From a virus: a stretch of DNA of 34,642 nt. Location of the stretch: the IMG/VR virus record IMGVR_UViG_3300025131_000203, positions 1 to 34,642 of that record. One strand, given 5' to 3'. Under the pieces are notes generated by a model, which did not search any database, was not told the origin of the DNA, and was given only the letters and a program-made list of their open reading frames with translations. The position numbers were made by a program, and so were the translations under genes. This document shows, piece after piece, positions 1 through 22,445 of this stretch (positions are counted from its first letter, which is position 1; each line of letters starts with the position of its first letter).

Positions 1-1725
1 AAGTTAGAAGATCAAATAAGGGATAATTATAAATTTGTATACGAAAAGAAAGTTCTACCATCGATGCGTAGTTTACAATTTGGTGGGAAACCAATTGAGA
101 TATCTCCTAATCGTATATATAACTGTGCATACTTACCAATAGATCATATTGATTCATTTCCAGAAACAATGTTCTTATTATTAGGGGGAACTGGTGTTGG
201 ATATTCTGTCCAGAGACATCATATAGAAAAACTACCACACGTAAATAAACCTTATACTAAACGTAAGAGAAGATATTTAATAGGTGACTCAATAGAAGGT
301 TGGGCTGACGCTATAAAAGTACTTATGAAATCCTATATGGGAGAGAGAAGGAGTTCAAAGATAAAATTTGATTATTCAGATATACGTGCTAAAGGAGCAC
401 AATTAGTAACGTCCGGAGGTAAAGCTCCAGGACCATATCCATTAAAAGAATGTATTACAAAGATAAAAGGGTTGTTAGAGAACAAGGACGACGGAGAACA
501 ACTGACAACATTAGAAACTCACGATATAATATGTTATATAGCAGACGCTGTCTTAACTGGTGGGATTCGCAGAGCCGCACTAATTTCTTTATTTAGTGCA
601 GATGATGCAGAGATGATATCATGTAAAGCTGGTAACTGGTGGGAACTAAATGCTCAACGTGGTAGAGCTAATAACTCAGCTTGTTTGATGAGACATAAAG
701 TAACCAAAGAGTTCTTTATGGATCTATGGGAGAGAGTTCAATTCAGTGGATCTGGTGAACCTGGTATTTACCTTAACAATGATAAAGATTGGGGTACAAA
801 TCCATGCTGTGAAATAGCTTTAAGACCGTATCAGTTTTGTAATTTATGTGAGGTAAATGTAAGTAATATTGAAAGCCAAGAGGATCTAGAAACTAGAGTT
901 AAGGCAGCTGCATTTATTGGAACACTTCAAACAGGTTATACTGAGTTTCATTACCTACGGGAGATATGGCAAGAGACAACTGAAAAGGATGCTTTGATAG
1001 GTGTCAGTATGACTGGAATTGCTAGTGGAAGAGTACTAGGATATGACCTTGAAAAAGCTGCGAAAATGGTTAAAAGAGAGAACGCGAGAGTAGCTAAATT
1101 GATCGGTGTCAAATCGGCAGCCCGATGTACGACCGTGAAGCCTGCAGGGACGACATCTCTGGCATTAGGAACCTCTTCGGGTATTCATGCATGGCATAAT
1201 GATTTTTATGTCCGTAGAATGAGGGTTGGAAAAAACGAATCTATCTACCAATATTTAAAAACAAGTCATCCGGAATTAGTCGAAGACGATTATTATCGAG
1301 CACACGACACAGCTGTTATTTCTATCCCTCAAAAAGCACCGAATGGTTCTATTTTAAGGACTGAATCACCGTTTGATTTATTAGAAAGAGTTAAGAAAAT
1401 ATCAACTGAATGGGTTGTACCTGGTCATAGAAAAGGTAGTAACACACATAATGTATCTGCTACTATATCACTTAAAGATAATGAATGGGAGGATGCTGGA
1501 GAATGGATGTGGGAGAATCGTAATCATTATAATGGATTATCAGTATTACCCTATGATGGTGGTAATTATAAACAAGCTCCATTTGAAGATATTTGTAAGA
1601 CAAAATATAATCTAATGATGGAAACTTTAACTGAAGTTAATTTGTTAAATATTTCAGAAAATGGTGATAATACAAATTTATCAGGGGAACTAGCTTGTGC
1701 AGGTGGGAGTTGTGAAATAAAATGA
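1..1725 (+). CDS. nrdJ: Class II (adenosylcobalamin-dependent) ribonucleotide reductase, 5' end cut by window
   Basis: Converts ribonucleotides to deoxyribonucleotides with a B12-derived radical. The frame is open from base 1, so the first Met at 64 is internal: the bases before it encode KVLPSMRSLQFGG, a conserved RNR stretch, and an estimated 75-80 N-terminal residues are missing. Seen: NCAYLPIDH with the first redox Cys (124-126); NPCCE, the N-x-C-x-E radical/catalytic motif (799-813); the partner Cys 11 residues after the catalytic one (838-840); the PAGTTSLALGTSSGIH substrate loop (about 1141-1190); and a C-terminal C-x4-C thiol pair, CAGGSC (1696-1713). The NCxYLPxDH and TGVGYSV stretches fit the monomeric RTPR-type class II enzyme rather than class I NrdA. 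It appears shorter than the roughly 740-residue bacterial type, as phage versions often are. The stop overlaps the next gene by 4 nt. Bases 1101-1180 are unusually GC-rich. Confidence 0.93.
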   Translation, partial: KLEDQIRDNYKFVYEKKVLPSMRSLQFGGKPIEISPNRIYNCAYLPIDHIDSFPETMFLLLGGTGVGYSVQRHHIEKLPHVNKPYTKRKRRYLIGDSIEGWADAIKVLMKSYMGERRSSKIKFDYSDIRAKGAQLVTSGGKAPGPYPLKECITKIKGLLENKDDGEQLTTLETHDIICYIADAVLTGGIRRAALISLFSADDAEMISCKAGNWWELNAQRGRANNSACLMRHKVTKEFFMDLWERVQFSGSGEPGIYLNNDKDWGTNPCCEIALRPYQFCNLCEVNVSNIESQEDLETRVKAAAFIGTLQTGYTEFHYLREIWQETTEKDALIGVSMTGIASGRVLGYDLEKAAKMVKRENARVAKLIGVKSAARCTTVKPAGTTSLALGTSSGIHAWHNDFYVRRMRVGKNESIYQYLKTSHPELVEDDYYRAHDTAVISIPQKAPNGSILRTESPFDLLERVKKISTEWVVPGHRKGSNTHNVSATISLKDNEWEDAGEWMWENRNHYNGLSVLPYDGGNYKQAPFEDICKTKYNLMMETLTEVNLLNISENGDNTNLSGELACAGGSCEIK

Positions 1726-2168
1726 AAACTCTATTAACAATATTATTAGTATTAATTTTTAATAATAACTATAGTCAAATCTACGACAACTATAGAGTAA
1801 GGGCTTACAGTAACCCTATTTGTTTAGGTAATGATACAATTCCTATAGAAGTAGTTTCAATATCTAATACCATCACTGTTGATAAACCAATGACTATATA
1901 TATACCAACAGTCTTTACTCCAGATGGAGATAATATAAATGATGTGTTTTATGTATTTGGTAATTTTCATTTTAAAGATCAAGGTATAGGTGGGTTGAGT
2001 TTTGAGATCTACAACCGTTGGGGACAAATGGTATTTAAGACAGAAGATTTAAGTGAAGGTTGGGATGGTAACTATAGTGATAATCCATCACCTATAGGTA
2101 CGTATGTGTATCAACTAAAGATCCGTGATCTTATAACAACATCTGGAACAATAACATTAATTAGGTAA
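1722..2168 (+). CDS. Secreted mini-protein with T9SS type B (CHU_C) sorting domain
   Basis: 148 aa. Residues 1-19 are a signal peptide (MKTLL, hydrophobic core, polar NNNYSQ). Residues 20-60 are a short segment with one Cys and no recognisable domain. Residues 61-148 match the gliding-motility-associated C-terminal domain: IPTVFTPDGDNINDVF, then IYNRWGQ (96-102), GWDG (113-116), PIGTYVYQLK and the terminal GTITLIR. In Bacteroidota this domain sends cargo through the type IX secretion system after Sec export. Here there is almost no cargo. The start overlaps the nrdJ stop as ATGA, suggesting translational coupling and early or middle expression. A terminator follows directly. Domain identity is confident; the function for a phage is not known to me. 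Surface modification, a bait or inhibitor of the host T9SS, or superinfection exclusion are all speculative. Confidence 0.85.
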   Translation: MKTLLTILLVLIFNNNYSQIYDNYRVRAYSNPICLGNDTIPIEVVSISNTITVDKPMTIYIPTVFTPDGDNINDVFYVFGNFHFKDQGIGGLSFEIYNRWGQMVFKTEDLSEGWDGNYSDNPSPIGTYVYQLKIRDLITTSGTITLIR

Positions 2169-2171
2169 TTA

Positions 2172-2199
2172 AAAAGGGGACCCGTTTGGATCCCCTTTT
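2172..2199. terminator. Bidirectional intrinsic terminator between convergent operons
   Basis: Stem AAAAGGGGA (2172-2180) pairs with TCCCCTTTT (2191-2199). Two further pairs extend it inside a C/A mismatch (2181/2190) and leave a GTTT loop. Read on the plus strand it ends in TTTT, 4 nt after the CHU_C stop. Read on the minus strand it ends in TTTTTT about 50 nt after the stop of the giant gene. It therefore serves both convergent transcripts. Confidence 0.8.
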
Positions 2200-2208
2200 C
2201 TGGTTACA

Positions 2209-2247: not shown

Positions 2248-5200
2248 TTATTTATTTTCTAGTTCATATATTTTGTTTACTCTATCTCTTTCATATGTTA
2301 AAGCTCTTATTTGTTTTGCTGTTAACCCTAATCTTAATAACAAATTAACTTGTTCTGCTTTGTTCATATCATTAATTTCCTTCTTTCTTTTACCTTCTTT
2401 ACTAGATTTATATTTACTAAGTTTCTTTAAAGCTTTATTAACTTTATCTGGATTTCTTTTGTATTCATTTACAATTTGTTCCACTCTTTCTGGTTCTGTA
2501 GTAGGATGTCTTTGTAATATTTCTAATTCTATTAATAAATCATGTTGCTCGTTAGCATTTAGATTAAAGATATTTTTTTCTAATTCTTTTACGGGATTTA
2601 CTTTTTTAATTTTCCAATCATCGTTTTTCTTAGGTTCTGTAGGTTCATCATATAACTTTAATGATTCTTCAATTTCCTCTTTTTTCTTTTCTTCTTTAGA
2701 TTTAAATCTATTTTCATCATATTCAGAAGGAGTATATATTTTATTATTTTCTCTTTGAGCTTTTAATATTGCAGCTACTCTACTATCTTCATTTTTCATA
2801 GCTTTGATCTCTTCATCACTGTATCCTATCTGCTTTAAGATATTTTCTTGTTCTTCTTTAGTATACAAACTAGGTTTAACTTTAGCTTTCGTCTCTAGTC
2901 TAATTTTCTTATCTTCCTCTACTCTAATACTTTGTTCTGAAGGAGATTCTAATTGCCATTCTGGCCATCCAAACAGCATTGCTACTCTTTTCCACCATGC
3001 ATTATTAGCATCTAAAGCTCCTTTAACGTTTTCCATTTTTTGGAATAATCTATTTAAAGGTGCATTGGTAGTAGCTGCAATTACTTTTGCAACAGATTCA
3101 TATATTGGGTTATTTATATCCCATGGATTACTAGCTTCAGGTTTGTCTTTATTATACTCCCAATTACTAGCTGCTTGAGTAAGTTGACTTAATTTTATAT
3201 CTAAAGGAGGAGCAACATCAAACATTTTTAAAGCTGATTTCTCAAACTGAGGTCCTTTCCAACTATCACTTTGAGAACGTTCATATATATCTAATCCAAC
3301 ATTTTTCAATGTAGAAACTATAGCTCCTCCAACACCTAAACCTCTTAAAGTGCTATCTAACATTCCGTTAGCAATATCATAGTACTTTTCTTTCTCATCA
3401 TCTGACATTTCATCATCATTAACTATAGCAAATATTGCTTGTTGTAAAGCATTGAATATAAGATTCTGAACAAATAAGTAATATATTATTTTAGATACGT
3501 TATGTTTCCAATCTCCTCTACCATTAATAAGATCTTGCGTAGCTTTCTTTATCAGTCTATTATACTGTAAAGGAGTGTTTGCGAAAGCTAATATAACTCT
3601 ACCTGCTCCACTAGCTTGTTGCATACTAATTTTATCTGGTCTAGAGGACTGTTGGTTTTCCTCCGATATTTCCTTCCATTCTCTTTTAGAAATTACTTCA
3701 GCTTCACTTTCAGTATATTTCTTATTAGTATCAGGGTTTGTTTTCTTCTTTAAATCATTAATTCTATTTCTATAATAAGTAGCACCACCAAACGCTATAG
3801 CAAAACTATCAGCTATTTGAGTAGGTTTAAATCCTTTTCTAAGTAACAAATTTACAAATGCTGCTGCTTTATTTGATTGACCATCTAAAGCATCTGCTAT
3901 TTCTGATTCAGCAACGTTTATCTTTAAACCCTTTCTACGCGCAACTAAGAAATCAGAATTAAATAAATGCATAAAATCTTTCCAAAATCGAGGCTGATTA
4001 GCAAATGCAATCGCCATTTTAGCTGGATTGTTAAAATTCCAATTACTATAATTTATCATAGATATAGTCTGCAACACAGCAGATCTCATATTATAGAACA
4101 TAACAACACCAACAGAATTATTAACCCAGTTATTTATTTGTCTTTCTAATCTACCAGCATTTTGAGGTCGGTTACTACCTCTTTTCATACGATCTAACAT
4201 GTTCTCTAAAGCTTCTCTATACTTTGCTCCATGTATAGCTTCTAATTTATTCAAGTTTTCTTCGGAGAATATTATATCAGCATTTTGTATGAATTGCTGC
4301 ATATACTTATTTCTTTTAGTAGTAGATAATCCATGTGTTAAATCACCTGTTATATTTCCAGTTCTCCAATTTCCACCAGGATAAGCATAGCCATCACCTT
4401 TGTTTATTGCAATAAGTTGCCCTGCAAATACATCTAATTCTAAATTATCTTTACCAATTTTTCTTATAGCGTTTAAATCTGTTTTTGATAATCCGTCTAT
4501 AGTTATACCTTGTTTATCCCATGCTAATATCCTAGCTACTTCTTCATTAGTAAAGTTTTTATAAACCTTTTGAGTTAAAGGATGTTTATAAAACCAACCT
4601 TTTTTACCTTTTAATTTTTTTACTAAGGTACTATAATCATTTAACAATGCACTTTGATCAAAATTAAGAGCAGTATATCCTTTGGCATATGGGTCTAGTA
4701 AATTATCTTTTAACCATTGCATGTCTTTATTACCTTGTTCACCTTTTCCAAGGTTAGGATACATTAAACCAACGAAATCTTCAGCTGATGGTGGGATAAA
4801 GAATTTAAATTTACCTTTACGTTTACCTTCTTCTTGAGCTGTTATCCTAGAGTATCTTTTGTAATATGGGATTCCGCTTACCCTCTCTAATATCTCATTG
4901 AAATCCTTATCTAATGTTCTACTATATTTTACGTGCTGTGTTCTATGTGTTATATCTTGTTCAGTTAAATCTTTTTCGACTGCATCTACATTTGGTTTTG
5001 AGTCATCAGCAAAATATACTTCATTATAACCATCTTGAGCAATTAAAGCATTAATAACATCGACTTTCGCTTGTGGATCACTACTACCCACACCAAAAAC
5101 ATCAACATCACCTAACCCTACTGATGCTAAAAATAATTTTATATAAGGAGCAGCCTCTGCATTCCTAGCTGTGATAACTTTTACATTTTCAGATCCATGC

Positions 5201-8200
5201 TTATCTACTATATTCTTAGCTACCACAACCATTTTTCCTTCTTTAATATCACTGGGTTTATCAAAGTCTGAGAAGTCAAAATCAGCTCCTGCTTCTTCTA
5301 GCTCCGCAGCTTTATCTGCATATGCTTTAGGATCTAGTTGTGCTTTTACATATCCTTGAGTGAAGGAGTTGGTTCTTATTTCTACCTCTGCTGGAACTGG
5401 ATCTGCTATTCCTTGTTTATCTGTATCTATTTCAACAAAATTATCTTTGTATCTATCTTTGTAGTATTGCTTAGATTCATTTACTTGATTCCAATTGTTA
5501 GTTACGATAAAATCTTTTAATCTTCTTTCTTTCCTTTTTCTATTAGCTTCTAAACTACTTTCTAAAGATCCTCCTGAAAACAATATTAATACATCATAAC
5601 CTTTATCTTCTAAATCTTGAATCTTCCTATCAGTAGCTTTAGTAGAAGCTCCTGTGAGATCAAGAGTTAATCCTTTACCTTCATCTGATAGCTTTTCTAA
5701 TTCAGCGTCAGCTAGCTTTTTTGCTTTTGCACCAATACTAGCTCTAATACTACGTTGTCTAGTAGTATAATTAGTTTCATCCGTAGGTAAACCAGCCTCT
5801 TTTTTTAGTTTTTCTACGAAAAAATCTTGATTAATAGGTGAAAATCCCTGATCAGTTAAACCTAACTTCTCCATGTTGGTAGTTTTATAGCCACCACTAG
5901 GACCTATTATTATAACAACTTTATTATCAGACAAAGGGTAACCTTGATCCGCTAACTCAGGAGGTCCAACAACCCTAACTTTATCACCTGTTTCTATTAA
6001 TACATCATCGGCATCAAAACCATATAATTTTTTATTTTCAGTATCTAGATCAAAAATTGTATTATCTGCATCTGTTTGGTTAACGGCGTTTAATACATCT
6101 AATCCATCTCCGTTTTGTAATTCAGTTATTAAACCTTCCTCTTCAAAATATACCTTATCAGTATCTATATCTATTAAAGGAATGTTATCATCTTTATATC
6201 TAGTACCTTCTTCTAACGTGTGAGTACCAGGTTTTCTAATTCCAGGAGTTTCTATTTTTAAATAAGTTCCTTTGTTATCAAACTCTTTTCCTGTAAAATT
6301 AACATTCTTATCAACTGCGTCCGGAATTATAGCAGAACTATATACCTCTAACTCTTTGTCAAAAATTTCTTTAGCTTTATTTACTTTTGAAGGATCGCTA
6401 ATTATATAGTTATATGTATATCTTTTCATTTTCTGAGCTGGTAAAGTATGTTCTAACACAAAAGGATCATTAGCATCTAACTTATATAAATCTATAATTT
6501 CTGATCTAGTCATTGTTGGTATGTATCTAATATCTGAAGCTATTTTTCCAAGTGCATCCATTGCATCTGGTCCGTAGATTATTTCAGTTATTGTAGCAGC
6601 CCCTTGCTCATCTATCTCATTATTAACATAAGCTTCCCTTAATTTTTCAACTAGCTTTTTTAATATTTTTTTAGCTTTTAAACCTTCTGGTTGTATTTCA
6701 TTTCTGACATATTCAATTCTTTTTTCAAGTGGTAATTCATCAAAATATTCCACTCCATATTTAGCTTTATCTGCTTTGGTAAATCTTTGTGTATACCATT
6801 CTTTATGCGAATTTATTTTACTAGGTACTTTCCATTCTTTCTTTACTATTTCTATAGCTTCTTTTTCAGTATATTTTTTATTAGTATCAGGGTTTGTTTC
6901 ATTTTTTAAATCATTGACTCTATCCCTAATACGATCACCTAGACTTTCCTCAATTCCTAGTTGTCTTCTACCATCCTCTACATTTCTAAATAAACTTAAA
7001 CGTTTTCCATGTCCATGTAATTTAACATCACTCTCAGTTAATTCCGCTCCAAAATCATCATTAGTAGTCTCCCATTGACCAAGTCTAGCAGGTGATGTAA
7101 AAGCTGGTAATATATACTTATTTACCTCTTCCTTTGTAAAAGTACCATCTTCTATTAATCCATTTAATAAATTTATTATTTGTACTCTTGCGGCATTGAG
7201 TTTATCTAATGTGTTAATAGCCGTAGTACCAGTTTCTATAACAATTTCTTTATCTGCCGCAATAGCTTCTAATGTTGAAAATATACCTATTTCAGCTTCT
7301 TCTTCATATACTTTTAGTTGTATACCAGAAAAATCTTTCCATGTACCCAAAGATGTAACTTTATCAAATTCTCTTTGAAACTCTTTACCAATGTTTTTTA
7401 GTTTAGCTCTGTTTTCAAAATCAGCTTTAGGTACAGATTGCATCAGCGTATTTATAAACCAATCCTTATCTCCACGTATTCTTCTCTCATTTGCTTTTTC
7501 TTGAAAATCAACACCACTTATTACATGAGCTATTCTTAATTGAACATCCCTAGGTTGAGCTTTAAATGTGGTACTAAAGTATACATCACGATCTCTTTCT
7601 ATACGCGTAGCTATGGCCGCTATATAATCACTTACCGGTTTAAATCCTTGTAGCTTTTGATTTTCTTTTAATTTATTTACAAATGCAGGATCTTGTGCTA
7701 TTTGCATAAAAGCATCAAGACCAATTTCAACTGTTAATCCACCCGCTAATGCATCTTTCCTTGTTCCTTTAGTTGATTCTGCGTATGGTTTACCAGTTTT
7801 CTTATTAATTGCCTCAGTACCTCGTAGCAAAAAGAAATTTACTACATCATCTTTTGTAAAATCTTTTTTAATATACAATGTATTACCAGCTGTTTCACTT
7901 TTAACTACATATCTACCTTCTTTTTCCGCTATCCTTGTTTCTTCCACTGACATTTTTTCAAGAACAACCTCTGTAAAAATTCTGTCTTCAGGTTTTTTAA
8001 GTCTTTCAAGTTCAACTAATTTACTTATATGTAAATCTTTTACTACGTCCCAATTGTCTTTTAAAAACTGTTCATATTTATCACCTCTACCTAATAATTT
8101 TTGGATAGGTAATCTAAGTTTTTCTTCAATAATATTTTCTACGGTATTTTTAAACTCATAAGAAGTTACATCAGGTAAATCCTTAGCTTTATAAATTCCT

Positions 8201-11200
8201 TTTATAGTTTCTAAAACTTCATTATAAAGAGGATCACCTTTACTAATACCTAGTTTTTTCCTAAGTGTAGATTCAACTATATTTTCTATCTTTGCTGTAG
8301 CTATGTCAATTTCTTCTATTATGTCTTGAGTAGTTACTAGTTCAGCTATTTCTGCTGCTGATAAATCATCTATTGTTTTAGAGAAATTTTCTATTACTGG
8401 CAATGACTTATGGCCTTCTAATACTATCTTTTTATATAAATAGGCCATTATCCAACCATCAAAATCATCATTTTTAGTATGATCAAAATTTCTTACATGC
8501 TTCATAAATGGTATAGAAGCTGCATCATAAATAGTTTGTTCTCTTTGTTTTTTTGTTAAGTTTTGATATTTAGGTGTATTGAGTAAATTTCTTTTATAAG
8601 CTATAGAAATAATTTTATCCCTGTAACCTGCCCAAATTTGCTTATATGGTAAGCCATTCCTTGTGGTTACAATATCGTCTGCACCTTTTAAGTGATCTTC
8701 ATAAGTTTCATTAACTCTTTCTTTTCGAGCTCTATCTGATTCATCTTTTTTATATTTTTGTATAGGAATAGGTTTTATAACTTTATTAGCATCACTTACA
8801 ATTTTCCGTAATGCAGTTAATTCATCTTCTTGTTCTTTAGAGTATGTAGGTGACGTAGTATTTTGTGCTAATTTAGCTTTAGCTACTATGTCTTGAATTT
8901 CCTTAAGTGCTTTTTGCTTAGCTGATACTGCCTCTTTAACAGAAGAATAATAAACACTTTCTTGAGTTGCTACTATATCAGGGACAGTTAGTGTTGTTGG
9001 TTTTTCACCAACTTTTGCTTTTGCGGCATAAATATCTTCTACAGTTAATTCACCACTTTTTAACTTCACCCCTATATCAGTAAATATTTTTAATATTTGA
9101 TTAGATCCTGCTAAATCCATCCAATATTCCCCGTCTGTAGCATTTTTTAAACCTTCATTCCATAATAAACCTAGTTGATTTACAAAATGATCAATCTTTT
9201 TTAAATCAATTTTATCTATCGATTCAAAGAAAGCTGCTATAACTTCATCATGATTAATTCGACCCTTATCTCCTAAATCCTGTTCAAAAACCCATTTCGT
9301 ATAAAGTTTTGGTTGATATTCTTGTACATATTGCAATATCTGTGTGCTTAAATCCTTAAATGCTCTTGGATTTTCTTTTAAAATCTCGATTGCTAATTTA
9401 TGTGCTGGTTCATGTAGAGTAGTATAAGGTCTATCATTTTTAACAGAATTTTCTCTTACAACCCATTGAACATCATATCGGTCATCATAGAAACCATTAT
9501 AATCACCACTGCTTATTCTGCTAATTGCATCATTTCTTCTATCTTCTAATATCTTTTTTTCTCTTTTGAATTTATCTGTATCAACATTACCATAATTCCA
9601 AGCTTCTTCTATTAGATCGTCATAAAATTTAGTTATTTCATTAACAAAATCTTCTATAGTATTAACACTTCTATAATCAAAATTAAATCCTTTTTTATTT
9701 AAAATTTCAACAAGCTTAATATTACGCACATCCTGAGCATCAAATTCTTCTTCATTATAAATCTTAATACCTTCAGCTCTTATTTCTGAATCAGTGATTT
9801 CATGATTATCACCTTTTTTATCACGAATTCTTTGCTTTGCTTTTGTTTTTATATCATTTAATCTCTTTCTCTTTTTTCCATTTATTCTATCAAAAATACT
9901 AGAAGCTTCTAAAGCAACATACCCAGAATTAAAAGGACCATTTTTATCTCTAAACATTTCCATTAATCCCATCATACTTTGATATCTTAGCTCAAATTCT
10001 TTTACTTTTTCTTTCTTTTGATTTATATCTAGATCTGGATTAGTTATTATATCTTTATATAGTTGTCTAACGTTATGAGCATCTATCAAGGCGTCTGTAT
10101 AGTATTCTAAAGCATTCTCATTAATACCTTCTTCATAAAGTCTATTCTCAATTTCAGTTTGTGTTTGACCCATAGTTTCAAGAGCCATTTCTCTAAGTCT
10201 ATTATTATTTTCTATCTGTTTTTTTATCTCTTTTATTCGATTTAAATATTCTTGATACCCAATACTTTGTTTATCTTTAATTTTAAGACCATCATATTGT
10301 TGTTTTAATATCTCTAATTGTTCTTCTAGTTGTTTATTTTCATCTAAAGCTTTTTGAACTTTATTAATATTCTCCCTAAGTGCATGTAATTCACTACTAC
10401 TAGCAAAATTTGTTAAGATTGTAGCTGTAATAACTGGTGAAGCACTCATGGTAAAACCATATGCTAATGATACTACTGTTGTTTCACCTAAATTTTCAAA
10501 AGGATGTCTACCATCTATTAAGTTTTGACATATTGTAGTTGCGTTTTCACAAGCAACTTCACTAGCGGTCATTACTGCAACACCTGTTTTTCCAGTAAAA
10601 TTTCGTATAAAAAAATCTCCTCTATGTTTGTAAACTTCCCCTTTAAGTCTAGGATTTTTTATACCTCTTAATATTTTGTTACCTTGAAGAAGTATTGGTG
10701 CTGTACTTAAATAAGCAAATGCTCCTTCCGCGACTCCGTAACCTATACTTTTCCAAAATATCTCCCATTCACTATATGTTTTAAAACCAGATGCCCTTAG
10801 TGCATCATTTTGTAAGTTCATTTCAATATCTTTCTTACCATAACCAGTAAGTGCAGCCCATACAGCTGGATTGATTGCACCATCCGTTGCTACTGTAGCG
10901 GCTATCATTAGTACTATTAATGGGAGTTGAGTTACAACTGTACCAGACATGTATTCTCCAAAATCCCATATATTTTCTATATCACCAAAAGCTGGTGTAT
11001 TTCTAAATTGCTCAAATTCCATATCTTCGTCTGTGAAAATACGATAAGCTTTATATACCTCTGTTACAATTTTTCTAGGCCCCGATGGATATAGATGATT
11101 TAATGTCAATTGAGTAGGATCTAAATAACTACCTATTTTACTTGCAGCGTATACAATAGAAAGAACTAAATCTAAAGTTTCCCACCCTAATCCTTCATAT

Positions 11201-16354: not shown

Positions 16355-18208
16355 TTAATGTGATGACACAACATATTTAGATCCAACTGAAAATAATTCT
16401 TTCATTCCACCTAAATTAGTAGTAGCATCTGTTGCTAATTTAACAGTTGCAAAATAACCTTTTATACCAGATATTGGAAATCCACCAAATCCATCTGGTC
16501 CTATAATTACCTCACCAGGTCGTGGAGCACTTTCACTAACTAAGTTAGCTACATACCTATTTTCTTTTCTATAAAAACCAGATCTATATGTAATACCATC
16601 AGAAGGATCAACATACTCACCTTCTGTATAACTTTGTACTACATCACTTTCATCTTGAAAAGACTTATTCATACCAGATGGTAAAATATCCGCTCCTTCA
16701 AATCCTGATTTAAAATAATCAGCTTGCCAGCCATTACTACCTTCATAATTAACAGTTTGGAAATTTTTAAGAACTGATGCTTGAGGATTAACAACAAAAG
16801 TAATACTTGAACCTTCTCGTTGTCCATAGTACATACCTCTATTGTTATCACTGGGTAGTTCATAATAATGTTCATACAATCCACCATTATGAAATGAATA
16901 ATATTTGTTTTTCAGACTACCTACAAACGTAGGTTTATAAGTATGAAAACTAGACCAACCATTTATTCTTTCATCAAAAGTTACAGTATCATATGAATTT
17001 AAATCAGTTGTATAATTACCTGAATTTTGTTGTATTGAAACAACATAATTTTTATTATGTATATCCCATCCCCCAATTATCTTACTTTTAACATTTTTTG
17101 TAAATCTAATTAGAGTACCCGAGTCACATAAGGTATGAAAAGTTGGATTTAGTGGATCACCTGGAGCAAATATTGGGCTAGGACCAGCGAAAGGAGAATC
17201 TGTAGGGAATCCAGTTAAATACACTTTACAAAAGCCATGTACGGTTTGTGTTGCTGTTACATAATACTGTGTTGTGACCCAACTGTCTACGCACCAACAT
17301 CCATTACAAAGATTTGAATAAGATAAAATATCACCAATTCCTATATCACAACAATTATATCCCGTATCTAAATTTAGTATTATCCAATATTCTTGTGGTT
17401 TTATATATGGAAAATATCCCCAATGTGTTACTGTAGTACCAGTAGCTGTAGTTACCAACTGCCAATTATCTGTTACGCCAGCTAAAGTATCTCTAAAGTA
17501 ATCTGTCATACCATACATAGATATCTCTGTAATACCATCTCGTGATAACCTACATATAGTACCACGATATCTATCTGAAAAATATTTAGCATACCCAAAT
17601 GTTGCAAAGCTTTCTGGATTTTTACTAATACCATATTCACCTAAAAATGGAAATACTTGTCCTATAACAACATTAGATTGAGTTTTCATCGGCGAACCAT
17701 CAGCTGAATATATAGCATTTTTATCTATCTGTGCATTGCTAACTTTATTCTCTTGGAATATTATTAAATCACTTTCTGAAGCATGTAATTTTTGTATAGA
17801 ACCATAAGCTGGATTTAATGATTTTGTAATTGATTCACCAACAGAAAATACATTAGTTTGGTTAATCCCAGTTCTAGCATTATAAATTCCAGAGTAAATT
17901 AATCCACTATCTAATTGTTGTTGATTAATATCTTCTTCTACTATATAAGCTTTTACACCTAAATCTAGAGCTGTATTATTAAATCCACCTTTTATTTGCA
18001 TTTCTTCAATAAACCAGGTTTGTGCAGTACCATCTTGACTTCCTGGTGGGGCAAACTCTCCAGGAGTTACAAGATCTCCAAATGGAAATTTTGGATAACC
18101 CGGAGGATCCCACGGTAAACCAGGCCATCCTGCGGAAATATTACCTTTTTCTACTACTTTTTTTAACCAAAAAGCGTTGTAATATTGCACTTCCATTGTG
18201 TATGCCAT
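16355..18208 (-). CDS. Tail nozzle/muzzle-type structural protein, second component
   Basis: 617 aa, beta-rich, with no signal peptide or membrane segment. Residues 145-240 hold the most conserved-looking block: SESDLIIFQENKV, then NAIYSADGSPM, GEYGISKNPESFATFGYAKYFSDR and LSRDGITEISMYGMTDYFRD. This resembles beta-propeller-like tail proteins following the T7 gp12-like or crAss-like stabilisation/muzzle protein in other phages. The N-terminal 60 residues are Pro/Gly-rich. An odd Cys cluster (C286, C287, C301, C304, C306, C327, and one near 358) interrupts the central part. The gene lies 19 nt after the stop of the 1405-aa tail protein. Homology is by reading only; role inferred as distal tail tube or nozzle. 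Confidence 0.6.
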   Translation of the reverse strand: MAYTMEVQYYNAFWLKKVVEKGNISAGWPGLPWDPPGYPKFPFGDLVTPGEFAPPGSQDGTAQTWFIEEMQIKGGFNNTALDLGVKAYIVEEDINQQQLDSGLIYSGIYNARTGINQTNVFSVGESITKSLNPAYGSIQKLHASESDLIIFQENKVSNAQIDKNAIYSADGSPMKTQSNVVIGQVFPFLGEYGISKNPESFATFGYAKYFSDRYRGTICRLSRDGITEISMYGMTDYFRDTLAGVTDNWQLVTTATGTTVTHWGYFPYIKPQEYWIILNLDTGYNCCDIGIGDILSYSNLCNGCWCVDSWVTTQYYVTATQTVHGFCKVYLTGFPTDSPFAGPSPIFAPGDPLNPTFHTLCDSGTLIRFTKNVKSKIIGGWDIHNKNYVVSIQQNSGNYTTDLNSYDTVTFDERINGWSSFHTYKPTFVGSLKNKYYSFHNGGLYEHYYELPSDNNRGMYYGQREGSSITFVVNPQASVLKNFQTVNYEGSNGWQADYFKSGFEGADILPSGMNKSFQDESDVVQSYTEGEYVDPSDGITYRSGFYRKENRYVANLVSESAPRPGEVIIGPDGFGGFPISGIKGYFATVKLATDATTNLGGMKELFSVGSKYVVSSH

Positions 18209-18227
18209 AACTAATTATTTCTTATTT

Positions 18228-21200
18228 TTAAACGTAGTAAGGTTTTTCTTCTACAAATTCAGTTTCCACGAATCTGCAATAAAATGTTGCAGTAGTTGAT
18301 AAACCACCACCACCACCAGTAGCATCTCTCCATTCTACTTCTACTTCAAATAAGTCGTCAATATAAATATCTGGATTATTAGGATCTCCTTGACCGGTTC
18401 CTAAAACTTGTGATTGTAACCATGCATAGGGGTAAGTTATATTACCACTGTCTGTATTAAAATAATAAGGGCCCAAAGGATTTGATGGAGTAACATTTGC
18501 GAGTTCAGATCCATTAACTCCTTTATCCAAAACACCATGATCAACTTTCCAATTACTTGATATAAAGAAAAATGTACATGGAGTATTATCCGGTTGCGGG
18601 TTGTTGCTGCCAAAATTACTTTCTATACGTTTTTGGTTAATGACGGTAATCTCTAATCCTTCATGTAATCTTGGAAAATTGTCATCCTCCCAAACACCAC
18701 GCACACCTGAGTTATTAAGATATGATCCATTAAATGTTGGTAAACAAAACCAATTAAACAATGTGTTTCTTATATAAGCGGTAAGAGTTATTGGAATATT
18801 ATTAGCGTTATAAACAGTCCGTAAACCAATCACCCATCTTTCTTCAGGATCAGCTAGAGTGTTTCCACCTGGTATTCTGTATGTGTCATCTTGATGTATA
18901 AAAGCAGATCTAAAATCAACAGTGGGGTTGCCAAAAGCTAGAGGATCATCAAGTTGCGCCCATAAAACCGATAAACCTTCATTACCAGTAAGTGGTATAG
19001 GTGACTGTCCAGCACCTCCACAATTTTGTCCATTATATTGATCATACCAATATTCACCACATGGTGCTGGTATAGCATTTTGATTCATTAGAAAATTCCA
19101 TACACTCGTAGTTGGAGTAATATCATTGTGCCAGCCTAAAAACATGTCATCCTCATAGTTTACCCAAGATGGTCCACCTGGACTGGATGGCATATTCTTT
19201 ATATCTAAATATCCAGCAAAAGGAGGTATATTTCTAAAAAACACCCCTGGCTGCGTAAAACCAACAGTGGCAGCTCCGTGCGTAACTACAAAAGTAAAAA
19301 CAAAATTATCACTCTGTCCAGATGAATTACCTGAATACCAATGATAATCTGTTAAATATATAAAAAACTCTCCTGGATTAGATATGTCTTCTTGTATATC
19401 AAATTTATCAACAATTATTGTACTATTCCCATTTACAACCTTATGAATCGATATGCTTATATTAGTAGTAATCTTGTTTCCATTTTGACCTAAAACCCAA
19501 AAATTATTTGATATTCTGCAATTGTCTATTGTTGGGGGATTTAACCATCCACCACTAGCACTATCATAATCCAAATATGCAACTTCTCCAAAGGGAGGTC
19601 GATTTTCATAATTCAAGTCACTCATCTCCCATGCATTTTCCCAATTTTCAAAACTAGTAGGGTCTAGACCTAATGCATTAGTTTCTTCGATATCACTATT
19701 TAGTTGTTCAATCAAACCTGATGATGTAGTTTCCCAAAAAAGTTTTAATCTTGAATATTCCGGTTCGGTTTCATATACAGCAAGAATAGGTAATTTTGGT
19801 GCAGCACCATCAATTTGTCTGGCACCTTCACCACTAACTCCTATAGTGTAATCTTGAACTTGTAATTCTCCATACAAAGGATTGCTTTGTGGATTATAAA
19901 ACTCATTAGGATACGTAGCACCTGTAGATGGATATAATCCCAAATCCACTCCAGTACCTATAGTTGTTACCACATCACCTGATAATCCTGGTGTAAATTG
20001 CTTATTTTCGTATCCAGTTGTAATGTTGCGAATATTTTCAACTCTAGGAAAAAGTTCAACACTAGCATTTTCAACTTCCTTAGGTTCTATTAAACCTAAT
20101 TCCACATTTCTAGTTTGAATAAACGCTTTAGCTTCAGGGGAATCCCAGTTATCAAAATGCGCTACTTTAGTATTACCCATAACATCAACAACAGCATACC
20201 ATAGCGGATTTTCTGTTTTAGTTGGTTTATTTGTTCTAAATATTTTTTGATCAGGACCAACATTTTTAAGATCCCTAGGTATTTTATTTATATTATCTCC
20301 TTGTAATGTTATGTAACACGTTGGATCCTTCGGTGTTGCTGGTGTTGCTGTGGTTTCAGTAGTAGTAACAAAGATACTACCATTTAGAATACCTGGAAAA
20401 TATATATTATAGTAATCTTGTTCTTGTTGTTTAACAACTATTTTGTAAGAATGCCACCCAAGGGGATTAGTTTGTTCATCATATAAACCTGGAGCACCAC
20501 TATTTATATCTCTAGTGGAAGTAATTGTAGAATTAAACAATATTTTTAAAGAATCACCTGGCCATGTTCTTAGTAACGGATTGGGGTTAGAAGGATCTAT
20601 TATAAAATCGTCTTTATAATTATGAAATAATGTAGATCCAGCAAAATGAGAAAAAGAAGAGTAATCAGCATCTTGTGATGATAATATTACAGACGACTGT
20701 CTACCGTATCTATCTGATAATATAATACCAACTTGGTATGTTCTATTTTGTTTTAATGTATGATTTGGATATTCTATTATACTATCTTCTCTAGGACCTA
20801 CTAATGGAGGGATACTATCTCCGGTTTTTTCAGTAGCTAATATATTATAATCTATAGTAAGTGGTGGAGTATGTTTATTTATATAATTTCCATATATAAT
20901 TCTATTACCTGAAACTTCTTGAGTAGCAGCTCTTATAGGGGTTTTATCATATACCCTTATAGTGTCTTTTTCTGGTAAAGTTTTGTAAGCTTTTTGAGAT
21001 TTATAGTTATATTCAAAAAAAGAATTATGGGATGTTAAATTATTATTATCTTCAAAATTTTCGCGGGATATAGTTTCAACAACTTTTACAGATAATCCAT
21101 CAGATTCTTTTATTAAAATATCTATTTCCTTAACTTTAAGAGCATTATGAACACTTTTTTTAATCACAAGTCCACTAGGTGTAAAAATTGGTGTAATTTT

Positions 21201-22445
21201 CCAAGCAAACTCAGGAGGTGATGGAATCATAAGTGATATATCGTTTACTCTATTCCTAAAAAACCCTACTTCAGTACTTTTGTAAGATTTATCCTCGTCA
21301 CCTTCCATAAAATAACCATCCTGCTTTGGGATAAATGCTTGTTGTGTAAAAGGTGCCATTAAAGAATATTCGTTATCTTCAAATTTAAATCTATAACTAA
21401 ATCTAGCGAATTTATCTTTTAAAAAATTAGGGTCCCCGGGCCAGTCTTCATTGTAATTTGGATTATTTGTAGGGTTATGAGCACCTTCTTTATATTCTAT
21501 TTGACACGGAAAGTAAGTTACCAGATCAGGTATTGAGCCATCGATATTTAATATTGTTAATAAATCATTATTAATATATGGTGTATTACCAGGAAAACTT
21601 ATAACAGCACTTGAGATGAATGATTGAGTGTCGTCATTTGGATTTTCTTTTACAAAAATATCAACTGCTAATCCTGTTCCACTTGTAGATGTAGTATTAG
21701 TAAATACATTAGCATGATGGCCAACTGGCATCTTTACTATGTCATATGTATTAGTAGCAATAGGTGTACCTGGTTGTGGATCTGAAATTTCTACAAAAGT
21801 TTGTGTAATATTATAAAGATATTTATCAGTACGATTTTTCATTGTACTCTCTAAGACATTAGTTGGGTAGTCTTCAGTATTTAACTTCATCAACTTTATA
21901 GGTTGAAAAGGATAATATTTAGCAACTGATATATGATCTTCGGTATTATAGTAAGAACCATTAACCGCGGCAATATCTACATTTATTTTTCTAGGTTGGT
22001 TTCGGTTATCTGTCCAGAAAAGTAAATCTTCTATTAAATTTATATGATTAATAGGATGTGTCTTAGAGAAGTTCAAAAAATATCCTTCTACTAGTATATC
22101 CATCACTTCAGTTATAACATTGTATGAGCATATATAGTGTAACGCTCCACTAGGACTAAAATTATCTAATTTAGTTGCTGAATTATCTGTATAGTTTGTT
22201 AACATCACAAATATCCTATCACCAGTAACATCCATATATCTACCTATAACTTCTGCACCACAACTATTTGCGAAGTTACTTATCAATTCATTACCTAAAA
22301 CATTTTCAATAGCTCCAACGTCAGCATCTTCAGATCTACTAATAGATATATTACGCGCATCTCTATACTCACCAGGAGGCATTAATCTGTCATCTAAGTC
22401 CTTATTCATTTTGGACTTGAGAAAAGTATTCTTACTTTCAGCCAT
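18228..22445 (-). CDS. Large tail nozzle/stabilisation (muzzle-type) protein
   Basis: 1405 aa. The N-terminus (KSKMNKDLDDRLMPPGEYRD, about residues 11-30) followed by ISISRSEDADVGAIENVLGN and LLFWTDNRNQPRKINV (141-156) is the hallmark arrangement of the large tail tubular B/stabilisation-type protein of many marine and crAss-like podoviruses: the fully packed particle's nozzle plug, probably a propeller plus inserted beta domains. The rest is long, beta-rich and Asn/Pro/Gly-rich, with presumptive inserted domains between about residues 640 and 1250 that may be surface-exposed receptor-contact domains. A short tandem stretch (TATPATP) lies near 20331-20350. It starts 5 nt after the stop of the neck protein gene. 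No enzymatic motif seen. Confidence 0.7.
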   Translation of the reverse strand: MAESKNTFLKSKMNKDLDDRLMPPGEYRDARNISISRSEDADVGAIENVLGNELISNFANSCGAEVIGRYMDVTGDRIFVMLTNYTDNSATKLDNFSPSGALHYICSYNVITEVMDILVEGYFLNFSKTHPINHINLIEDLLFWTDNRNQPRKINVDIAAVNGSYYNTEDHISVAKYYPFQPIKLMKLNTEDYPTNVLESTMKNRTDKYLYNITQTFVEISDPQPGTPIATNTYDIVKMPVGHHANVFTNTTSTSGTGLAVDIFVKENPNDDTQSFISSAVISFPGNTPYINNDLLTILNIDGSIPDLVTYFPCQIEYKEGAHNPTNNPNYNEDWPGDPNFLKDKFARFSYRFKFEDNEYSLMAPFTQQAFIPKQDGYFMEGDEDKSYKSTEVGFFRNRVNDISLMIPSPPEFAWKITPIFTPSGLVIKKSVHNALKVKEIDILIKESDGLSVKVVETISRENFEDNNNLTSHNSFFEYNYKSQKAYKTLPEKDTIRVYDKTPIRAATQEVSGNRIIYGNYINKHTPPLTIDYNILATEKTGDSIPPLVGPREDSIIEYPNHTLKQNRTYQVGIILSDRYGRQSSVILSSQDADYSSFSHFAGSTLFHNYKDDFIIDPSNPNPLLRTWPGDSLKILFNSTITSTRDINSGAPGLYDEQTNPLGWHSYKIVVKQQEQDYYNIYFPGILNGSIFVTTTETTATPATPKDPTCYITLQGDNINKIPRDLKNVGPDQKIFRTNKPTKTENPLWYAVVDVMGNTKVAHFDNWDSPEAKAFIQTRNVELGLIEPKEVENASVELFPRVENIRNITTGYENKQFTPGLSGDVVTTIGTGVDLGLYPSTGATYPNEFYNPQSNPLYGELQVQDYTIGVSGEGARQIDGAAPKLPILAVYETEPEYSRLKLFWETTSSGLIEQLNSDIEETNALGLDPTSFENWENAWEMSDLNYENRPPFGEVAYLDYDSASGGWLNPPTIDNCRISNNFWVLGQNGNKITTNISISIHKVVNGNSTIIVDKFDIQEDISNPGEFFIYLTDYHWYSGNSSGQSDNFVFTFVVTHGAATVGFTQPGVFFRNIPPFAGYLDIKNMPSSPGGPSWVNYEDDMFLGWHNDITPTTSVWNFLMNQNAIPAPCGEYWYDQYNGQNCGGAGQSPIPLTGNEGLSVLWAQLDDPLAFGNPTVDFRSAFIHQDDTYRIPGGNTLADPEERWVIGLRTVYNANNIPITLTAYIRNTLFNWFCLPTFNGSYLNNSGVRGVWEDDNFPRLHEGLEITVINQKRIESNFGSNNPQPDNTPCTFFFISSNWKVDHGVLDKGVNGSELANVTPSNPLGPYYFNTDSGNITYPYAWLQSQVLGTGQGDPNNPDIYIDDLFEVEVEWRDATGGGGGLSTTATFYCRFVETEFVEEKPYYV

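Follow-up and report, generated by a model that had tools for sequence, protein, structure and literature searches.

The window, the whole 34,642-nucleotide stretch of viral DNA analysed here (IMG/VR record IMGVR_UViG_3300025131_000203, positions 1 to 34,642), opens with an operon on the plus strand. It comprises a class II (AdoCbl) ribonucleotide reductase (RNR; 1..1725, +), whose 5' end is cut by the window edge, and a stand-alone type B sorting protein of the type IX secretion system (T9SS) of 148 aa (1722..2168, +), identified by ORF calling and domain searches. The RNR is recognised by TIGR02505 (2.4e-78) and PHROG 367 (5e-121), scores below the TIGR02505 cut-off because its 5' end is missing, and is 60-65% identical to the RNRs of Microcystis, Vibrio and Oceanospirillum phages. 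Its stop codon overlaps the start of the small gene in an ATGA (1722..1725, +), through which the two genes are possibly translationally coupled. A terminator-like hairpin (2165..2207, +; -20.9 kcal/mol, z=-2.8) separates convergent gene blocks, and beyond it structural genes with crAss-like muzzle domains run towards the small gene. Two muzzle-like ORFs on the minus strand (16355-18208 and 18228-22445, together 16355..22445; PF25731 5e-10, PF25729 1.4e-8, PHROG 14478) mark the contig, by homology, as crAss-like; the muzzle homology is divided between them, with the N-terminal part in one and the C-terminal domain in the other. The small gene adjoins a 3,786-aa ORF on the other strand (2248-13608) that has no confident Pfam match.

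The small gene lies near the contig end, and the first-pass annotation had raised the prospect of a chimera with bacterial DNA at this end. No sign of one was seen in composition, neighbours or relatives: the G+C content of the small gene is 30% against 32% for the rest of the contig, the adjoining RNR is of phage type and shares the ATGA overlap, and relatives of the small gene occur beside other phage genes in five other independent viral contigs. We therefore regard an assembly chimera at the left end as barely credible.

The small protein consists of a signal peptide (residues 1-19; 1722..1778, +), 40 further residues and a complete type B domain (CHU_C; residues 60-148; 1899..2165, +), leaving a mature protein of ~129 residues. 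The signal peptide, MKTLLTILLVLIFNNNYSQ, was recognised by eye without a predictor and has the same position in all phage relatives. PF13585 (CHU_C) matches residues 60-135 (E=1.4e-16, 60.8 bits, cut-off 27) and TIGR04131 residues 60-148 (E=9.2e-16, 57.8 bits, cut-off 35), the latter over model positions 2-85 of 85, so that nothing of the domain is missing up to the terminal ...GTITLIR. Both matches exceed the curated cut-offs and uphold the initial description of a signal peptide, about 41 residues and a complete CHU_C domain. The type A model TIGR04183 scored 15.3 bits against a cut-off of 23, a Pfam-type domain search returned no cargo domain, and PHROGs held no family for the protein. Among solved structures GhpA alone matched by sequence (2.9e-8); fold matches were weak and included the T9SS-bound NucA C-terminal domain (CTD; 8glk_D). 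The profile searches confirm a real phage-encoded type B T9SS domain without ordinary cargo.

In large bacterial proteins ending in CHU_C, an FN3 domain often stands directly before it, with F and G strands reading [C]YRVxA ... SxSNxx[C]. Residues 20-59 of the window protein (1779..1898, +) correspond to this region, aligning from position 80 onward of a contiguous FN3+CHU_C model. AlphaFold2 places strands at residues 20-29 and 45-55 (block pLDDT ~90), and in a modelled contiguous bacterial C-terminus (L023) the corresponding strands lie at 98-107 and 114-123, the FN3 part being of moderate confidence (pLDDT 52-85). A Foldseek search with the L023 model matched mainly FN3 pairs and bacterial adhesins. 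The window hairpin carries a 9-residue loop insertion otherwise seen only in one phage relative (L001), and of 18 contiguous proteins 12 have cysteines paired across the hairpin, as does none of 28 bacterial stand-alones or six phage proteins. Judged by alignment and structural model, the segment is not cargo; it is the F-G hairpin that closes an FN3 domain, its final two strands. The earlier remark of "almost no cargo" is right, with the correction that these 40 residues belong to an FN3 domain that has been split. The suggestion that the protein is a carrier for segment 20-60 does not hold, the other half of that domain being found at the ends of giant CTD-less proteins in bacterial genomes.

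Phage relatives of the window protein

The survey of viral contigs proposed in the first-pass annotation yielded five further phages with stand-alone proteins of the same short build, of 142 aa (L001), 133 aa (L004 and L009), 134 aa (L002, with the near-copy L003) and 139 aa (L103, with the near-copy L102). In this build, to which the window protein conforms, a signal peptide, the F-G hairpin and CHU_C make up the whole protein (~130-190 aa). The relatives are 48-65% identical to the window protein, and the phage proteins form one clade in 96% of bootstrap trees. Seven residues of the segment preceding the domain (Y24, R25, A28, S30, S46, S48 and N49) are invariant across the six phages. Estimates of dN/dS range from 0.06 to 0.45 across the phage set, with 0.20 for the least saturated pair (L004/L009) and 0.11 for the hairpin of that pair, indicating that the phage modules are under purifying selection. 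This is a real type B domain that a phage encodes and that further Bacteroidota phages have kept, so the sequence is most naturally read as engaging the host T9SS. The roles suggested in the first-pass annotation, a decoy that jams the machinery, a surface mask or a superinfection-exclusion factor, may each apply.

The neighbours of the window gene and of two relatives (L001 and L004) are genes of nucleotide metabolism and replication (RNR, clamp loader, thymidylate synthase ThyA), which argues against a virion part. The L002 gene adjoins genes for ClpC, a methylase and Hsp20 (names assigned by eye). Other sorting domains were encountered in the same viral material. Two uncultured phage genomes of more than 630 kb (LR745206 and LR756502) hold four and three CHU_C ORFs, respectively, of ~116 to 1,675 aa, among them a 116-aa protein lacking the hairpin (L007, in LR756502) and one of 126 aa (L207). 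The phage carrying L009 (G005) has, in addition, a gene for a CUB protein of 523 aa that ends in a type A T9SS tail (L170; 14398-15969, minus strand), and phage G118 has one for a signal-peptide protein of 832 aa whose tail is type A-like (L209; 2967-5465; GMYIVKVKNRRQLGIGKFIKE).

The complementary split in bacterial genomes

A profile of the six phage proteins was searched against 295 genomes of one Bacteroidota class. Chromosomal proteins of the same build (140-200-aa open frames) were found in 30 of these genomes, which speaks against the premise that bacteria use the domain only as a C-terminal tag on large proteins. A first survey had suggested that short CHU_C proteins are rare in bacteria (0 of 150 at ≤150 aa, minimum 181); the profile search showed this to be a ranking effect. 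No prophage signs were evident around the bacterial stand-alones; near them lie housekeeping genes and genes for response regulators, for kinases and for secreted proteins of very large size. L126, L128, L138, L140, L141 and L157-L168 often adjoin genes for histidine kinases and small CheY-like response regulators. At 13 loci the small gene lies directly upstream of a giant gene (gap -23 to 43 bp). The adjoining giants are proteins of ~1,750-2,140 aa with PKD and FN3 domains, and the three scanned with Pfam (L132, L134 and L136) gave no match to a T9SS sorting domain. They break off within their final FN3 domain, immediately ahead of the F strand (...GVDYYLIEKKDKYGEWEPVKKIDGKSSNTKIDE-stop). 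LamG-type giants adjoining L127 and L131 differ in having a type A-like tail of their own.

The two halves were placed on a common reference profile of 203 positions built from 18 contiguous FN3+CHU_C termini. In 12 giants the final domain spans profile positions 1-7 to 65-78, its end coinciding with the protein C-terminus, while the 28 bacterial stand-alones span 69-86 to 201-203 and the six phage proteins 80-86 to 203. Earlier FN3 domains of the same giants extend to ~90-118 on this profile, and therefore only the last FN3 domain is cut. Searching with a profile of the cut ends (A3) recovered split giants in every genome with a stand-alone, including those in which the genes are not adjacent. 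All 19 giants read at strong A3 hits, from 14 genomes, stop 0-4 residues past the A3 match; at weaker A3 hits, in control genomes and elsewhere, the chain goes on for at least 120 residues. The 30 genomes with split giants at E ≤ 2.4e-26, a threshold chosen after part of the hits had been read, are the same 30 of the 295 that hold a stand-alone (Fisher p = 1e-41, an overstated value because related genomes are non-independent). In 24 of the 30 the giant was read to its stop codon (the rest being G020, G041, G104, G202, G258 and G283). One module may serve several giants, since five genomes (G040, G067, G084, G124 and G244) pair two split giants with a single stand-alone.

The phage proteins score as high against the contiguous model as against the stand-alone model (108 and 105 bits, respectively, for the window protein), and a joint clade of phage proteins and stand-alones has an AU p-value of 0.30. 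Given these similar scores and the AU result, the phage gene may have arisen by a truncation of its own, independent of the bacterial stand-alones.

Split proteins in phages and the search for partners and shuttles

A second kind of split was found in phages, involving Ig-like domains. One-chain Ig-array CHU_C proteins of 733-758 aa occur in viral contigs (L014-L018), the phage proteins L014 and L016-L018 combining Ig-like domains with CHU_C. On the one-chain profile, a 186-aa secreted protein at L013 ends at position 171, and a CHU_C protein encoded in that operon resumes at ~176; at L208 a 187-aa protein ends at position 169 and is followed by an overlapping CHU_C gene. The break falls close to where strand A gives way to strand B in the final Ig domain. 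The donor-side proteins end in hydrophobic-x-[HT]-[ND], which was seen in six distinct proteins of viruses and in one of 151 signal-peptide-like ORFs of bacteria obtained with a crude filter. Phage operons in which secreted proteins with this ending adjoin an Ig-CHU_C protein were located at 4710-8345 (L013), 5130-8357 (L104) and 154-1902 (L208), and from their sequences they look like a donor-strand version of the same split. The 210-kb phage G118 has an Ig-type pair as well as an FN3-type module. Phages thus do encode sorting domains apart from cargo, as in the two-gene splits at L013 and L208. The first gene of the L104 operon (5130-5798) encodes a 222-aa signal-peptide protein without a Pfam match that resembles an outer-membrane barrel by eye and may have a shuttle-like role. 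The Ig-type two-gene set (L013, L104 and L208) is marked by a complete or almost complete Ig domain ahead of CHU_C and by adjoining secreted proteins with the ending given above. The window gene was considered as a member of this set and rejected, its neighbours being RNR and structural genes.

Searches for an FN3-type partner, using the giant-end and contiguous FN3+CHU_C profiles against ORFs of the 246-, 210-, 74- and 45-kb module-carrying contigs, returned none, as did the A3 search of the two phage genomes of more than 630 kb. The one weak hit, in G005, proved to be the CUB protein, which is complete and has a type A tail of its own. PorP/SprF shuttles (PF11751) were absent from 15 viral records, the same search finding 3-14 copies in each of six bacteria used as a positive control. 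The phage records being devoid of PorP_SprF, a host shuttle would be needed; and as no FN3-type phage partner was found, any unfinished giants of the host would be the likeliest target.

A putative sorting subunit acting in trans

Known type B substrates, such as SprB and others of F. johnsoniae with PorP/SprF and the PG1035-PorP-PorE system of P. gingivalis, have the same CTD and a Sec signal (PMC12618676, PMC9143113), and by analogy the translocon and shuttle class are presumably the same for the window protein. In the known substrates cargo and CTD share a single chain, and a shuttle gene often lies downstream, whereas the window protein joins its CTD to one half of an FN3 domain and the phage has no shuttle gene. 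A cognate PorP/SprF gene nearby is common and not strictly defining, as orphan type B substrates exist (PMC12618676). Phage-encoded T9SS cargo is already known from the type A proteins of Cryophage (PMC7468147) and from sorting-domain proteins of crAss-like cluster 2 (PMC6949934), which resemble the window protein in being phage products addressed to the host T9SS. The Cryophage type A tags sit on endoglucanase, glycoside hydrolase and PA14 cargo, whereas the window tag is of type B and cargo-free. Two proteins of uncultured Caudovirales phages (A0A6J5NJX2 and A0A6J5L8Z9; 187-199 aa) have the same fold and are annotated, by name alone, as "Gliding motility-associated, C-terminal domain"; none of the sources found mentions the two-chain arrangement. 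As a candidate for a known mini-CTD, RemZ was set aside: it is of type A, is homologous to the adhesin RemA, and has residues numbered beyond 1100 (PMC10994853). Searches of the open-access literature turned up no T9SS substrate that is split or sorted in trans. Completion of a beta-sandwich by strands of a second chain is familiar from chaperone-usher pilins and from SpyTag/SpyCatcher, derived from a split CnaB domain. The arrangement considered here would differ from these in being a natural FN3/Ig split that attaches a secretion address, with no pilus polymer and no isopeptide bond.

We infer that the module is a detachable subunit for sorting and anchoring by the T9SS and that it acts in trans, probably by plugging into giant adhesins of the host during infection, a reading to which we give about an even chance. 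The module would be exported by Sec and would offer its FN3 F-G hairpin to a partner ending in an unfinished FN3 domain (strands A-E). Fragment complementation would complete the partner's FN3 domain and lend it a type B CTD, and the pair would then pass the T9SS and be held by a host shuttle of PorP/SprF type. The CTD-less giant PKD/FN3 surface proteins of about one tenth of the sampled Bacteroidota genomes would be sorted in this way. The phage copy, made with nucleotide-metabolism and not virion genes, most likely plugs into the host's unfinished giant adhesins; alternatively within the same proposal, it would compete for the shuttle of the host giants. For export to be efficient, type B signals reportedly require 150-235 residues (PMC12618676), and the ~129 residues of the mature phage protein would fit a subunit completed by a partner without proving it. 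In either case the display of the infected cell would be changed, probably altering the adsorption of further phages. T9SS substrates and gliding adhesins have been reported as phage adsorption factors (PMC13288928), for which reason altered receptor display or superinfection exclusion would be the likeliest benefit to the phage.

The main rival, which we hold to be possible at lower probability, is a free competitor: a secreted mini-CTD that occupies the SprA translocon or the PorP/SprF shuttle and displaces or delays host adhesins without any docking, the hairpin being a mere N-terminal extension of the kind that type B signals need. Such signals do extend past the conserved domain (150-235 aa reported), and type B shuttles are cognate and limiting, sfGFP-CTD fusions being secreted only with a co-expressed shuttle (PMC12618676). 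The missing PorP_SprF, which makes a host shuttle a requirement, and the hairpin-free 116-aa version in LR756502 also suit a competitor. It leaves unexplained, however, why the hairpin is exactly one half of an FN3 domain under purifying selection, and why it matches a bacterial two-gene system.

That the phage itself encodes a partner with an unfinished FN3 domain (tail, surface or secreted), outside the 34.6-kb fragment or too diverged, seems rather unlikely. The window is indeed a fragment, and Ig-type phages encode both halves (L013, L208), but the profile searches of the four module-carrying contigs and the two larger genomes were empty. A functionless remnant, in which a host adhesin tail was acquired by chance and is decaying, is very improbable: the protein is short, has no enzymatic cargo and occupies a phage accessory position, yet it is intact in six phages, with the identities and dN/dS values given above and a single origin of the phage clade.

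The detachable-subunit reading can be widened to T9SS sorting in trans as a general device, in which interchangeable CTD subunits, encoded by Bacteroidota as well as by their phages, finish split FN3 or Ig domains on giant cargo proteins, the phages having captured such a subunit for control of host adhesins. This broader proposal we hold tentatively, at a little under an even chance. The T9SS substrates of the cited papers bear the sorting domain on the same chain, and a separate sorting and anchoring protein working through a split FN3 domain would, if true, be a new way to address giant adhesins. It would also explain the CTD-less giants of about one tenth of the sampled genomes, and the split pair could be used directly as a tag in two pieces for displaying proteins at the surface. 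In phage biology, it would point to a specific means for Bacteroidota phages to reprogram the surface of the cell.
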